A DNA stretch of 64,000 nucleotides from Stigmatella aurantiaca DW4/3-1 (GTDB lineage Bacteria > Myxococcota > Myxococcia > Myxococcales > Myxococcaceae): assembly GCF_000165485.1 (NCBI RefSeq), contig NC_014623.1:4607501-4671500 (forward strand), read 5' to 3'. Within the stretch, counting starts at the first letter, position 1. Each line of letters begins with the position of its first letter. Shown piece by piece: positions 9,620 to 14,549 of this stretch. The notes under the pieces are model-generated. The model was not told the DNA's origin and searched no databases. It saw only the letters and a list, made by a program, of their open reading frames with translations. A program made the position numbers and the translations under genes.

Positions 9620-11008
9620 ATGAAGAAGGGGTGGGCAGTCGCGGTCCTCGCTGTCCTGGCGCTGCTGGGCGTATTCGTGACGCCCGCGGCTCAGGTGAAG
9701 CAGGGAGGGCCGATCAACGCAGCCGATACGGCATGGATTTTGACCGCCACGGCGCTGGTCTTGTTGATGACGCCAGGGTTGTCGTTCTTCTACGGCGGCA
9801 TGGTGCGCCTGAAGAATGTCGTCTCCACACTGCTGCAGAGCTACATGGCGATGGCCGTCATCAGCCTGCTCTGGGTGGCGGTGGGCTTCAGCCTGAGCTT
9901 TGGCGACAGTTTCCACGGGCTCATCGGAGATCCCCGGACCTTCTTCATGTTCAGCGGAGTGGGCGGGGAGACGCATCCGGATCTGGCGCCCACCATCCCG
10001 CTGATGCTCTTCGCGCTGTTCCAGATGAAGTTCGCCATCATCACCCCGGCGCTCATCACCGGCGCGTTCGCCGAGCGCGTGCGCTTCAAGGCGTACGTCG
10101 TCTTCATGGTGCTCTTCAGCCTCTTCATCTACGCGCCGCTGGCGCACTGGACGTGGCACCCGGAGGGCTTCCTGCGCAAGTGGGGCGTGCTCGACTTCGC
10201 GGGCGGCACGGTGGTGCACATGTCCGCGGGCTTCGCGGCGCTGGCCGGGGCCATGGTGCTGGGCCGCCGCAAGGCGCACGTGGACAACGCTGCCCACACG
10301 CCCGCCAACCTTCCGCTCGTCCTGCTGGGCACGGGCATGCTGTGGTTCGGCTGGTTTGGCTTCAATGCCGGCTCGGCGCTCTCGGCCTCGTCGCTGGCCA
10401 CGCAGGCGTTCGCCACCACCAACACCGCCTCCGCGGCCGCCATGCTCGGGTGGATGGCCTTTGACTGGATGCGCGGCCGCAAGCCGAACGCCATGGGCGC
10501 CTGCGTGGGCGCGGTGGTGGGCCTGGTGGCGGTGACGCCCGCGGCCGGCTTCGTCACCGTGGGCCAGAGCATCCTCGTGGGCCTGGTGGCCAGCGGCATC
10601 AGCAACGCCGCGGCGCACTTCAAGAGCCGCACCGCCCTGGACGACACCCTCGATGTGTTCCCCTGCCACGGCCTGGGAGGCGCGGTGGGCATGGTGCTCA
10701 CCGGGCTGCTGGCCAAGGACGTGGGCCTCATCAATGGAAAGACGGAGACCTTCCTGATGCACCTGCTGGCGCTGGTCATCGTCACCGTCTTCTCCTTCGT
10801 GGGCTCCTACCTGCTCTACAAACTGGTGGACCTCATCGTCCCGCTGCGCGTCTCGCAGTACCAGGAAGAGGAAGGGTTGGATCTCAGCCAGCACGGGGAG
10901 ACGGTGGGCGAGACCGCCGTGGCGTCCGTGGCCGCGCCGCCCGAGGCTCCCGCGGGAACCAAGCCCGCCGCCTCTGCGCCAGAAGGCTCCGTTCCGGTGC
11001 CTGCGTAG
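9620..11008 (+). CDS. amtB: ammonium transporter (Amt family)
   Basis: This 462-residue inner-membrane channel passes ammonium/ammonia under nitrogen limitation. It has a cleavable-looking N-terminal segment and eleven hydrophobic helices. Family motifs include GLSFFYGGMVRLKN in the first core helix, FAERVRFK, HMSAGFAALAGA and DDTLDVFPCHGLGGAVG, which contains one of the twin pore histidines. The ATG at 9620 is chosen because AGAGGAG lies 6 nt before it. A longer in-frame start at 9533 would add 29 unlikely residues. A Pro/Ala-rich tail follows the last helix. No glnK (PII) gene is adjacent, although amtB is often paired with one. Confidence 0.95.
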   Translation: MKKGWAVAVLAVLALLGVFVTPAAQVKQGGPINAADTAWILTATALVLLMTPGLSFFYGGMVRLKNVVSTLLQSYMAMAVISLLWVAVGFSLSFGDSFHGLIGDPRTFFMFSGVGGETHPDLAPTIPLMLFALFQMKFAIITPALITGAFAERVRFKAYVVFMVLFSLFIYAPLAHWTWHPEGFLRKWGVLDFAGGTVVHMSAGFAALAGAMVLGRRKAHVDNAAHTPANLPLVLLGTGMLWFGWFGFNAGSALSASSLATQAFATTNTASAAAMLGWMAFDWMRGRKPNAMGACVGAVVGLVAVTPAAGFVTVGQSILVGLVASGISNAAAHFKSRTALDDTLDVFPCHGLGGAVGMVLTGLLAKDVGLINGKTETFLMHLLALVIVTVFSFVGSYLLYKLVDLIVPLRVSQYQEEEGLDLSQHGETVGETAVASVAAPPEAPAGTKPAASAPEGSVPVPA

Positions 11009-11022
11009 TCCTTCCGCGAGAG

Positions 11023-11050
11023 GCACCGGGGTTCGCATCGGCCCCGGTGC
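11023..11050 (+). terminator. hairpin after amtB
   Basis: GCACCGGGG at 11023-11031 pairs with CCCCGGTGC at 11042-11050 across a 10-nt loop, starting 15 bp after the amtB stop. There is no T-run, so an intrinsic terminator is likely but not certain. Confidence 0.5.
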
Positions 11051-11093
11051 TCTCGAGGAACGCGCGGCGCTCGGCTCGCGCCCAGCCCCGCCA

Positions 11094-11110
11094 GTGCCCA
11101 CGTGGGGCAC
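11094..11110 (-). terminator. hairpin after the GH30-CBM gene
   Basis: GTGCCC at 11094-11099 and GGGCAC at 11105-11110 form a short stem 15 bp past the stop of the GH30-CBM gene. The same element, with a longer stem, follows the GH18 gene at 13084-13108, so it appears to be part of the duplicated cassette. Confidence 0.4.
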
Positions 11111-11554
11111 CGGGGGGGCCAAGGTTTACTGCTTGACGAGCTCGAACTGGTCGAACGCCGCCCAGTTCTGAGCGTTGGCGTCGCTGTAGACGCCCACCTC
11201 GATGGTGCCGGTCGTCACCTGGAGGTTGTTGATGGTGTACTGGGTCCAGCCCGTGACAGCGCCGGAGCCAATCTCCGCCGTCACTTCGGCCCCGCCGTGG
11301 TTCTTGGCGTACAGGCGCAGCGCACGCTGGCCGCCGCTGGAGCGGGCCCAGACGCTGGCGCGGTAGGTGCCGTTGGCCACGCTCTTGGTCTGGCCGGTCA
11401 GCTGCTGGTAGGCCGCGGACCAGTAGTGGGTGAGCTTGTAGTTCCCCGTGTAGACGGTGTCCGTGTCGACCTTGTGCGCCAGCGCGACGTTGTGCCACTC
11501 GGAGTTCCAACTCGCCAGGTTGCCATTCTCGAAGCCCGGGTCGGTGAGCAGGTT
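11094..11554 (-). repeat. copy 1 of duplicated CBM + 3' hairpin cassette
   Basis: About 460 bp covering the hairpin, the stop codon and the C-terminal carbohydrate-binding module of the GH30 gene is repeated in the same orientation at 13087-13548. By eye the two copies are about 90 percent identical at DNA level, including the non-coding part after the stop. Confidence 0.85.
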
Positions 11555-13021
11555 CTGCGGCGTGGGGCCGGTCTCACGCGTCCAGAGGTACGTGCCCACG
11601 GTCTTCGCCGGCAGCGTGGCGAGCAGCTCCCACCCATCGGTGGACAGCTTGAACCGCTGGCTCGCGGCCGTCTGGTTGATGACGACGGACACGACGGTGT
11701 TGTCCGGGTTGAGGAAGGACACGTTCGTCACGGTGCCGGAGGAGCCGTAGCCGCTGGAGATGCGCTTGGCGCCCGCCTTCACGTACTTGGAGTACTGGGC
11801 AATCAGGTAGTACTCGGGCAGCGCCCAGTACGTGTCGTATGAGGACGCGCTCTGGATGAGCATCGTCGGGCCGGGGGTGCCGGTCCACTTCTCCGGCTGG
11901 ATGTTGCTGTCCAGCATCGTCACCCAGGAGTTGTAGCCCGCCGCCCAGTTGCGGAAGTACTGCGCCATCCGGTCCGCCCCGGCCGTGCCCCACACCGCAC
12001 GCTCGGTCATCAGGATGTTCTTGTTCGGGTAGGCGTTGCGCACCTCCGTCATGATGCTGGGCTCGCCCGCGTAGTCGTGGAAGGCCACGCCATCCACCGC
12101 CGCGTTCGAGGCGGCGTCATCGAGGATGGTGGGGACGTAGGACCAGGCCGAGTCGAAGTTGTGATCAAACGCCCAGATGCGGGTGCTCAGGCCGTTGGCG
12201 TTCAGCTCGTTCTTCAGGGCGAGGATGAGCTGCTTGGATTGGGCCGGGCTCACCGAGGCGCTGGGATAGTCCGGAGCCGTGTACAGGGGCTCGTTCTGGA
12301 CGGTCAGCGCGTAGATGGGAATGCCCTGCGCCTGATAGGCCTGAATGGCCTTGCGGTAATACACCGCCAGGTTGGGGATGTACTGCGTCAGCAGCTTCCC
12401 GCCGATCAGGCTGCCGTTGTCCTTCATCCAGGCAGGCGGGCTCCACGGGCTCGCGAAGATCTTCAGGTTGGGATTGACCGCCAGCGCCTGCTTGATCGTG
12501 GAGATGATGTTGTAGTCGATGTCCTTCTGAATCGAGAAGTACGTGAGGTTGGGGTCCGTCTGTCCCGCGGGCCGGTCGTCGTATGTATAGAATTGCCGCG
12601 CGGTGAAGTCAGACGTCCCGAGGGTGATGCGCAGCAGGTTGATGCCCGCGCCGGTGGACGGATCCAGCAGCTTCTTCAATGCCTCCGTCCGCTTCGCCTG
12701 GGACATGCGCGAGAGGTTGTAGATCGTCGACTCTTCCAGCGAGGTGCCAATGCCCAGCATCGTCTGGTATTGCACCGAGGGATCCACCGCGAGCGTCGTG
12801 GCGGACGTGGAGGTGGGGCTCGTCAGGGCGATGTTCGCCTGTTGGCTCAACGTGTAGGGAATGGATGAAGGGCCGCTGAACCAGCTGCCATTGCCCGGGT
12901 TCTTTTCGGAACTCCAGATGACCTGCGCGGTGGGGGCGGCCGAGGCGGCCGTTCCTACGGCGAAGGTTCCACAGGCCAGGGCCGAGGCCACCCGGCGCTT
13001 CCATGTCTTCAGAGAATTCAT
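11126..13021 (-). CDS. secreted GH30 glycosidase with C-terminal carbohydrate-binding module
   Basis: The 631-residue product is a secreted glycoside hydrolase of family 30 (beta-1,6-glucanase, xylanase or glucosylceramidase types). A signal peptide covers residues 1-28 and ends ASA. The catalytic barrel plus beta-side domain covers about 33-485. The acid/base Glu is in VQNEP (E244) and the nucleophile Glu in LMTERAVW (E340). A jelly-roll-like binding module fills 490-631 and ends FDQFELVKQ. The ATG at 13021 directly precedes the signal peptide; the frame stays open upstream but that stretch is Ser-rich noise. The module is nearly the same as that of the chitinase upstream. The exact substrate is unknown. 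Confidence 0.92.
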   Translation of the reverse strand: MNSLKTWKRRVASALACGTFAVGTAASAAPTAQVIWSSEKNPGNGSWFSGPSSIPYTLSQQANIALTSPTSTSATTLAVDPSVQYQTMLGIGTSLEESTIYNLSRMSQAKRTEALKKLLDPSTGAGINLLRITLGTSDFTARQFYTYDDRPAGQTDPNLTYFSIQKDIDYNIISTIKQALAVNPNLKIFASPWSPPAWMKDNGSLIGGKLLTQYIPNLAVYYRKAIQAYQAQGIPIYALTVQNEPLYTAPDYPSASVSPAQSKQLILALKNELNANGLSTRIWAFDHNFDSAWSYVPTILDDAASNAAVDGVAFHDYAGEPSIMTEVRNAYPNKNILMTERAVWGTAGADRMAQYFRNWAAGYNSWVTMLDSNIQPEKWTGTPGPTMLIQSASSYDTYWALPEYYLIAQYSKYVKAGAKRISSGYGSSGTVTNVSFLNPDNTVVSVVINQTAASQRFKLSTDGWELLATLPAKTVGTYLWTRETGPTPQNLLTDPGFENGNLASWNSEWHNVALAHKVDTDTVYTGNYKLTHYWSAAYQQLTGQTKSVANGTYRASVWARSSGGQRALRLYAKNHGGAEVTAEIGSGAVTGWTQYTINNLQVTTGTIEVGVYSDANAQNWAAFDQFELVKQ

Positions 13022-13083
13022 GTCTTGGTCTCGTTGTCGGCTCGATGTGACTGTTGCGCTCAGGGGGGTGGCCAGAGAGGCCT

Positions 13084-13108
13084 CCCGGTGCCCACGGGGG
13101 GCACCGGG
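13084..13108 (-). terminator. hairpin after the GH18 gene
   Basis: CCCGGTGCCC at 13084-13093 and GGGCACCGGG at 13099-13108 form a 10-bp perfect stem with a 5-nt loop, 10 bp beyond the GH18 stop. It belongs to copy 2 of the duplicated cassette. Confidence 0.55.
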
Positions 13109-13548
13109 GGCCCAAGGCTTACTGCTTGACGAGCTCGAACTGATCGAAGGCGGCCCAGTTCTGGGCATTGGCGTTGCTGTACACGCCCACCTCGATGGTG
13201 CCGGTCGTCACCTGGATGTTGCTGATGGTGTACTTGGTCCAGCCCGTGACGGCGCCGGAGCCAATCTCCGCCGTCACTTCGGCCCCGCCGTGGTTCTTGG
13301 CGTACAGACGCACCGCCGCCTGGCCACCGCTGGAGCGGGCCCAGACGCTGGCGCGGTAGGCGCCGTTGGCCACGGCCACCGACTGGCCGGTCAGCTGCTG
13401 GTAGGCCGCGGACGCGTAGTGGGTGAGCTTGTAGCTGCCCGCGTACACCGTGTCCGTGTCGACCTTGTGCGCCAGCGCGGCGTTGTGCCACTCGGAGTTC
13501 CAGCTCGACAGGTTGCCATTCTCGAAGCCCGCGTTGGCGAGCAGGTTG
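13087..13548 (-). repeat. copy 2 of duplicated CBM + 3' hairpin cassette
   Basis: This is the partner of the repeat at 11094-11554. It encodes the C-terminal binding module of the GH18 chitinase and its 3' hairpin. Similarity ends sharply just before the catalytic domains, which are unrelated. Confidence 0.85.
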
Positions 13549-14549
13549 CCCGTCACCGGGGGCGTGCCCCCTTGCGCCTTCTGGTAGATGGCGGTCAGCA
13601 GCGAGGCGCTGCCGGTGGCGTCATCCGAGATGTCCCAGATCATCACGCCGCCGCCCCGCTGCATGGCGAGCGTGGTCTTCGACTGGATGGTGGCGATGCC
13701 GTTGTAATAGACGTTGCCGACGTTGTCCTTGTAGGGCGCCTGCGAGTCCCGGGCGACCAGGGAGCGATAGCCCTCGTAGGTCGAGGGCGAGCGGCCGTAG
13801 AACGGAACGCCCAGCACGGCCTTCTCCTTGGGGAGGCCGCGGCCGAGCCAGTAGTCCAGGGACTGGACGGCGTAGTTGTACGTCGAGTGCGGCTGGCCGC
13901 CGTCGTAGGCCATGATGTTCAGGAAGTCCACGTCGGCGAAGGTCGCCGTGGGGATGCCGCCGCCCGTGTAGCCATTGGCGACCACGGCCGCGGTGAGCAG
14001 CTTGCCGCGGCTGTGCATCGCCGAGGACAGCTCGCGCATCAGGGCCGCGAAGTTGTTGGCCGAGGTGCCCGGGTCCGGGTACTCCCAGTCAATGTCCACG
14101 CCGTCCAGCCCGGCCTGGTTCACGTAGTTCACCAGGTTGTTGACGAAGGCCGTGCGCGTGCCGGCGTTGGCGGCCAGCTGCTCGAAGCCGGAGTCATTGC
14201 CGTCATTCCATCCGCCCACGGCGATGGAGACCTTGACGCCCCGGGCGTGCGCTGCCGTGACCAGCGAACGGAGCCGGCTGTCACCGCTGCCCGGCCCGGT
14301 GAGACCGCCTTGGGCATTGGGGACGATGAAGGCGTAGTTGATGTGGGAGAGCTTGTCGTACTGGATGGCGTTCACGTCGCCATTCCAGCTGGGGAAATAG
14401 CCGACCACCTTGGTGGCGAGCGCGGGTTGCTCGTGCGTGGCGATGGGCGCCTCCTCGGCGGCATCCATCGGGCCGGAGCACGCCGCCAGCGCGCTCAGGC
14501 AAGCAGCTCCGAAGGCCAGGTGTCTGAAGGGGGTTACGAAACGGGCCAA
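13119..14549 (-). CDS. lipoprotein GH18 chitinase with C-terminal carbohydrate-binding module
   Basis: This 476-residue protein hydrolyses beta-1,4-linked N-acetylglucosamine polymers if it acts as its family suggests. An N-terminal lipoprotein signal ends in LAAC (C24), so it is probably anchored to the envelope. The GH18 barrel covers about 47-330, with the strand-4 motif DGVDIDWE at 149-156 and catalytic Glu E156 intact. A duplicated binding module occupies about 335-476. The only start that keeps the signal peptide is TTG at 14549, preceded by AGAGAGGA at a good distance. The next in-frame ATG would remove the signal. It is probably one transcription direction with the GH30 gene, but a strong hairpin separates them. 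Confidence 0.92.
   Translation of the reverse strand: MARFVTPFRHLAFGAACLSALAACSGPMDAAEEAPIATHEQPALATKVVGYFPSWNGDVNAIQYDKLSHINYAFIVPNAQGGLTGPGSGDSRLRSLVTAAHARGVKVSIAVGGWNDGNDSGFEQLAANAGTRTAFVNNLVNYVNQAGLDGVDIDWEYPDPGTSANNFAALMRELSSAMHSRGKLLTAAVVANGYTGGGIPTATFADVDFLNIMAYDGGQPHSTYNYAVQSLDYWLGRGLPKEKAVLGVPFYGRSPSTYEGYRSLVARDSQAPYKDNVGNVYYNGIATIQSKTTLAMQRGGGVMIWDISDDATGSASLLTAIYQKAQGGTPPVTGNLLANAGFENGNLSSWNSEWHNAALAHKVDTDTVYAGSYKLTHYASAAYQQLTGQSVAVANGAYRASVWARSSGGQAAVRLYAKNHGGAEVTAEIGSGAVTGWTKYTISNIQVTTGTIEVGVYSNANAQNWAAFDQFELVKQ

Follow-up and report, generated by a model that had tools for sequence, protein, structure and literature searches.

Two neighbouring genes of Stigmatella aurantiaca DW4/3-1, coding for a putative GH18 chitinase and for a GH30 glycosidase, end in near copies of one carbohydrate-binding module. 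We give a probability of about 85% to the following account of their likeness: to judge from comparison of sequences, the module is old on both enzymes, and tandem neighbours have been kept alike by gene conversion limited to this domain, a form of concerted evolution. Positions given below are those of the window, the whole stretch of 64,000 nucleotides that was analysed.

Two hydrolases and their common module

Both genes are read from the minus strand, in head-to-tail order: GH18 (13,119–14,549) and then, 97 nt further on, GH30 (11,126–13,021). The GH18 protein, 476 residues long when read from a TTG codon, combines a lipoprotein-like N-terminus (LSALAAC, by eye), a GH18 barrel, a TPPVTG linker and the C-terminal module. 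It matches Pfam PF00704 (4.3e-44) and, in the PDB, the candidate chitinase 6xyz (1.9e-39). The stretch DGVDIDWE, invariant in 9 of 9 aligned GH18 rows, fits the DxxDxDxE motif of GH18 chitinases; with domain and motif present, the enzyme resembles a chitinase. Its structure model is weak (mean pLDDT 56.0). The GH30 protein (631 residues) begins with a signal-like stretch (by eye), followed by a GH30 barrel with a beta-sandwich and by the module, as delineated with Pfam, PDB, NCBIfam and Foldseek; PF02055 (1.3e-26) and PF17189 (9.8e-12) both score above cut-off. By sequence, curated model and fold, its nearest likeness is the GH30 endo-beta-1,6-glucanase BT3312: 5ngk is the best PDB sequence match (2.9e-59), 5ngl the best fold match, by Foldseek (7e-34), and the endo-beta-1,6-glucanase equivalog NF053856 the best NCBIfam model (2.8e-78), reached at 263.6 bits, far under the curated cut-off of 700. 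It differs from BT3312 by an identity of about 30% and by its extra C-terminal module. Glu244 and Glu340, which we take to be the two catalytic glutamates, are invariant in 15 of 15 GH30 rows. Here too the structure model is weak (mean pLDDT 65.6), better in the module part and worse in the catalytic part.

The modules, 142 residues each and coded on the minus strand, occupy 11,129–11,554 (GH30) and 13,122–13,547 (GH18). In phmmer searches both match PDB entry 2xom, at 1.1e-11 for GH30 (query residues 1–141 aligned) and 2.2e-12 for GH18. We presume that 2xom is the CBM61 module of a Thermotoga galactanase; CBM61 binds beta-1,4-galactan. The match to this solved member runs over the whole module length, which makes both modules CBM61-like, with the difference that they sit on GH18 and GH30 enzymes, not on a galactanase. 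With Pfam CBM_4_9 (PF02018) they score 22.5 bits (GH30) and 24.2 bits (GH18), under the gathering cut-off of 25.9. Chitin and beta-1,6-glucan are both polymers of fungal walls. Passages of the relevant papers present beta-1,6-glucan as a fungal wall polymer (PMC11319602), report S. aurantiaca as a chitin degrader and place CBM61 among the modules occurring with myxobacterial GH18 (PMC12093494). The occurrence of both polymers in fungal walls, taken with the reported chitin degradation, makes a joint attack on these walls the natural reading, and the enzyme pair probably acts in this way. Judging from its family and those of its partners, the module would probably anchor both the chitinase and the beta-1,6-glucanase to one shared polysaccharide of a wall, most probably that of a fungus.

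When aligned without gaps the two modules are identical at 389 of 426 nucleotides, in keeping with the initial annotation, which had described near-copy C-terminal modules on the two enzymes, at coordinates correct to within some 10 bases. The 37 differences are distributed as 15/7/15 over codon positions 1/2/3, with 13 synonymous and 18 non-synonymous codons; dS is 0.17, and GC3 is 0.95 in both modules. Identity begins at the first codon of the module and extends about 39 nt beyond the stops. The sharp limit claimed at the catalytic domains is real, the 200 nt upstream of the modules being only 34% identical (ungapped). So is the similarity said to run past the stop codons into a 3' hairpin: beyond both TAA stops 32 of 39 aligned columns match, with one gap, and none of 500 shuffles equalled the local score of the flanks (first 60 nt, stop included), which gives p = 0.002, the lowest value that the test allows. 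A repeat search returned 300 nt at 90% and, for the flank, a partly overlapping 33 nt at 85%. A GGTGCC/GGCACC hairpin folds in both flanks (z −2.6 and −3.1). After GH18 (13,080–13,118, minus strand) it lies inside the 97-nt intergenic gap (13,022–13,118, minus strand), ahead of the GH30 start. After GH30 (11,086–11,125, minus strand) the flank, common to the GH18 flank, carries the hairpin with one mismatch, its left arm being of GH18 type and its right arm of GH30 type (arm types by eye, over 4 and 6 flanks). These hairpins are rich in G+C and no T-run follows them; terminator-like sites between 10,900 and 15,000 number 0, against 2.0 in shuffles. A terminator role is therefore unproven, and the word 'terminator', used at the outset, was an assumption. 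The convergent ammonium-transporter gene ends near another hairpin (11,005–11,055, arms GCACCGGGG/CCCCGGTGC; z −4.0 for 10,985–11,060), whose core sequence is akin to both GH hairpins.

As to further copies, for which a search of the genome had been proposed, the DNA query found, beyond the window pair, one copy at 68% on another GH30 at 1.866 Mb and four stretches at chance level (40 of 128 first-look candidates scored), and with these matches the idea of a many-copy cassette was rejected. With the protein query, five loci came up at E ≤ 0.1, of which two have 34–35% identity. A genome-wide repeat or mobile hairpin was likewise rejected: the exact form with 8-nt arms occurs 2 times in the 10.26-Mb genome, where a reversed control pattern occurs 5 times, so that the hairpin is no dispersed element.

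Distribution and age of the fusions

In what follows, Stigmatella stands for genus group g1, to which the window genome (G000) belongs, and g12 for the second genus. At E ≤ 1e-20 the module is present in 13 of 116 genomes examined, and at 1e-40 in 12 of 96 genomes of the family. It is carried by both GH18 and GH30 in nine genomes of two genera. Seven of the nine hold the two genes in tandem, namely G000, G001, G004 and G005 in Stigmatella and G034, G048 and G054 in g12; in G006 (Stigmatella) and G017 (g12) they stand at separate places. Three genomes (G013, G033, G020) have the module on GH30 only, and G002 and G003, of genus group g1, gave no match at E ≤ 1e-20. A broken GH18-module copy is seen in G041 (L048:5603-6323), where some 174 GH18-matching residues are followed directly by the last 69 of the module, with two TGA codons within the module match. 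In the four Stigmatella tandem genomes the pair adjoins the same ammonium transporter and carB; at the g12 tandem loci neither of these genes lies within the 14-kb stretches compared.

Linkers are conserved by enzyme, over nine GH18 rows and 12 GH30 rows. In a tree of 16 GH18 catalytic domains, all nine intact module-bearing proteins form one clade (99/98), which makes the GH18 fusion both old and single; the sisters of this clade are two module-less g8 proteins with a QXW-repeat tail. In G013 and G033 the nearest module-less GH18 (L075, L076) displays a C-terminal module swap, a QXW-repeat tail, presumably CBM13-like, replacing the CBM61-like module. Neighbourhoods of GH18 and GH30 are recurrent: another GH30, at about 31–33% identity, adjoins a second GH18 in G033 and G013 (L077, L078), and another, also at about 31–33%, lies some 5 kb ahead of the tandem in G001 and G004 (L035:2-859, L036:5-835).

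The hairpin is old as well. It follows GH30 in all four Stigmatella tandem genomes and GH18 in G000, G005 and the three g12 tandem genomes. Behind the GH18 of G001 and G004, which is separated from GH30 by 28 nt, the hairpin is lacking. Since it is missing after GH18 in these two close relatives, module and hairpin were not one recent joint arrival. With this absence, the enzyme-specific linkers and the single GH18 fusion, the proposal that a module and its terminator had moved together onto an unrelated enzyme falls. These sequence comparisons indicate that both enzymes have long carried the module; for the lineage of the window, they exclude that an unrelated enzyme received it in a recent transfer.

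Probable exchange between neighbouring modules

Within a genome, nucleotide identity between the two modules is high where the genes are in tandem (G000 91%, G001 92%, G004 91%, G005 87%, G034 90%, G048 88%, G054 91%) and lower in both genomes where they are dispersed (G017 77%, G006 71%); mean dS is 0.188 for tandem neighbours and 0.456 for dispersed pairs. The dispersed genomes are a confounded control, because their GH30s, together with that of G020, form a separate and more divergent subclade (100/100). Inside Stigmatella, NG86 dS of the modules is 0.186 within genomes and 0.376 between orthologues of the two subclades, an order that 0 of 2000 codon bootstraps reversed. Orthologous catalytic domains of the same subclades differ by a dS of 0.24–0.33; hence the module pair within a genome is, on average, less diverged than one and the same enzyme is between the sister subclades, the exception to this mean being the module pair of G005 (dS 0.276).

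This pattern varies along the module. We split it at nucleotide 200, a cut picked after viewing the sites. In the 3' part alone, Stigmatella dS is 0.170 within genomes against 0.470 between subclade orthologues; in the 5' part it is 0.211 against 0.292 (P 0.008), and there the comparison of dS within tandems with that between Stigmatella and g12 is not significant (P 0.15). Between G000 and G001, 20 quartet sites group the modules by genome, 10 by enzyme and 0 crosswise, the by-enzyme sites lying mostly 5' and the by-genome sites mostly 3'; of the 20 genome pairs listed, which are non-independent, 8 show this contrast of position at p < 0.05. For nucleotides 201–426 grouping by enzyme is rejected (p-AU 2.9e-4 with four genomes, 2.8e-5 with the seven tandem genomes). 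For nucleotides 1–200 the four Stigmatella GH30 modules stay together (91/94, not starred), g12 GH30 modules group with g8 GH30 modules (91/89), and a tree that unites all seven tandem GH30 modules in one clade is not rejected (p-AU 0.080). Between genera the grouping by enzyme is nonetheless lost in this part, all eight Stigmatella modules falling together (87/90), which earlier exchange, in the common ancestor of Stigmatella, would account for. Over the full length, a single clade of GH18 modules is rejected only marginally (p 0.047). When conversion tracts are sought by run length, the test gives p < 0.05, uncorrected, in three of the seven tandem genomes, and in four of seven when dispersed rows are added; for the window's own pair it is not significant (p 0.12).

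The diagnosis of concerted evolution has several sides. Paralogues are closer than orthologues at silent sites, between the Stigmatella subclades and not between G000 and G005. The duplication predates the speciations compared, according to the orthologous fusions, the linkers and the catalytic trees. Finally, with a cut chosen post hoc, the 5' part of the Stigmatella modules groups in conflict with the 3' part. Adjacency is not sufficient: at three Paenibacillus loci (L030, L031, L032, from 5581), two back-to-back CBM61-like modules in one protein, read through without a stop, are unhomogenised, with 73–91% amino-acid identity for the same copy and 53–62% for different copies, and copy-by-copy orthology kept (the second copy of L032 holds a masked stretch).

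Three other explanations have to be weighed. The alternative closest to the initial annotation, which spoke of a recent 'duplication or conversion', is that a module-plus-hairpin cassette was copied between the genes in the window's own lineage, creating a new fusion. It would account for the 91% nucleotide identity, the similarity of the flanks and the abrupt catalytic edge; we nevertheless hold it very improbable, for both fusions recur in all seven tandem genomes, the window's included, and in the two with separate genes. Each enzyme has kept its own linker, the hairpin follows GH18 in the second genus too but not in G001 and G004, and the dS of the window pair, 0.17, does not point to a very recent event. 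Indeed, such an origin of the fusion is refuted by the orthologous fusions in relatives. Of the annotated phrase, conversion is what the within-genome likeness of adjoining genes supports, and 'recent' is lost to the fusions of nine genomes in two genera.

The same within-genome similarity would be expected if the whole module had been re-duplicated independently in each lineage (the Stigmatella subclades, the second genus), and unequal exchange between direct repeats is a plausible route; the clustering of all eight Stigmatella modules in the 5' part would fit as well. Yet each event must have struck the same junction while sparing the enzyme-specific linker and 5' residues, and the 5' part groups by enzyme within Stigmatella, and g12 GH30 with g8 GH30, so that we consider this course of events improbable. 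Finally, strong purifying selection or codon bias might have acted alone, with no exchange whatever: a GC3 of 0.95 in both modules limits silent change, and ligand binding would constrain the sequence. This is barely credible when orthologous modules of sister subclades are silently twice as distant as those of one genome (0.376 against 0.186), with dispersed pairs at 0.456, since constraint alone should not bring a paralogue closer than an orthologue.

Conversion between old fusions, the account that we prefer, would have proceeded as follows. Before at least two genera of the family diverged, a GH30 and a GH18 had each acquired a CBM61-like module at the C-terminus, as distribution, linkers and the GH18 catalytic tree show. 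The genes stood in tandem, GH18 ahead of GH30, and the modules thus form direct repeats, each about 430 nt long and spaced by some 2 kb. Homologous recombination would since have replaced stretches of one module by the other copy time and again, as phylogenetic conflict and low silent divergence suggest; copying would halt where homology halts, at the catalytic junction, and in the window genome it probably ran beyond the stop codon into the 3' hairpin. For its direction, identities to dispersed or single-enzyme references are not decisive.

The history of the window's own pair can be dated relative to its relatives. In the comparison with the nearest of these, G005, grouping by enzyme prevails with 22 sites, against 4 for grouping by genome, which implies that the large exchanges in the coding pair precede the split of G000 and G005; by the comparison of subclades, they would fall after the split from G001 and G004. 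One later and small exchange is suggested just past the GH30 stop of G000, on a handful of bases examined by eye: the sequence there reads TAA-A-CCTTGG followed by a left hairpin arm of GH18 type, whereas the GH30 of G005, G001 and G004 has a TGA or TAG stop and another left arm. The right arm in G000 is still of GH30 type, hence the mismatch in the stem. In G005, a short tandem duplication of 11 nt spans the GH18 stop, at the module edge (L037:7252-7275).

Some residues appear to have resisted homogenisation in Stigmatella, at codons 4, 5, 6, 36, 38 and 45, near the 5' end of the module, and at codon 109, either on account of their position close to where homology ends or owing to a fit with each catalytic partner. 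All seven sites fixed by enzyme in the four Stigmatella genomes are amino-acid changes and none is silent, as against 2:9 (amino-acid:silent) for subclade-specific sites alike in both enzymes (Fisher p 0.0023). Selection as the proven cause of this excess was set aside, as there is no difference from dispersed pairs (149:68, p 0.10); in the second genus enzyme-specific sites are 19:5 (p 0.35 against dispersed).

Precedents and meaning

The closest precedent is that of mtrA-1 and mtrA-2 in Methanococcales and Methanomicrobiales, two genes of one operon whose concerted evolution is limited to a domain (PMC4632066): the shared domain is homogenised by long-lasting conversion, and the fused remainder differs. 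In that system the genes are paralogues set apart by a transmembrane domain, and by the authors' dating the process spans billions of years; here two unrelated catalytic folds are involved, a binding module is exchanged, and the pattern is shown across two genera. Concerted evolution has also been reported to recur in 26 prokaryotic genes, tuf for example, in which gene conversion likewise makes the paralogues of one genome closer than orthologues (PMC6053082); the authors of that study state a focus on exchange over whole genes, with which a module-limited case would probably be missed. The family CBM92 offers another parallel, as one kind of binding module appended to predicted GH18 chitinases and GH30 beta-1,6-glucanases, among others; it is a different module family, and the passages on it mention no exchange between neighbouring genes (PMC11039641). 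Nothing equivalent concerning gene conversion or shuffling of binding modules appeared in the titles and abstract openings of the literature matches listed. The GH18/GH30 case is of a known kind, the concerted evolution of mtrA, from which its wholly unrelated catalytic partners and the exchange of a binding module set it apart.

Near-identical modules on neighbouring hydrolases invite a reading of recent shuffling. When likeness is refreshed on old fusions, module identity misdates the shuffling of domains. A further idea, which we advance as a conjecture and think rather unlikely, is that the tandem is a device: conversion would keep a shared 'address tag' on two unrelated hydrolases, changes in binding specificity would spread from one to the other, and residues fitted to each partner would be protected by selection. 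If the tag is indeed kept alike for a shared target, tandem hydrolases would be a natural test of how binding specificity evolves jointly through conversion, and the protected residues would mark the contacts between module and catalytic domain.
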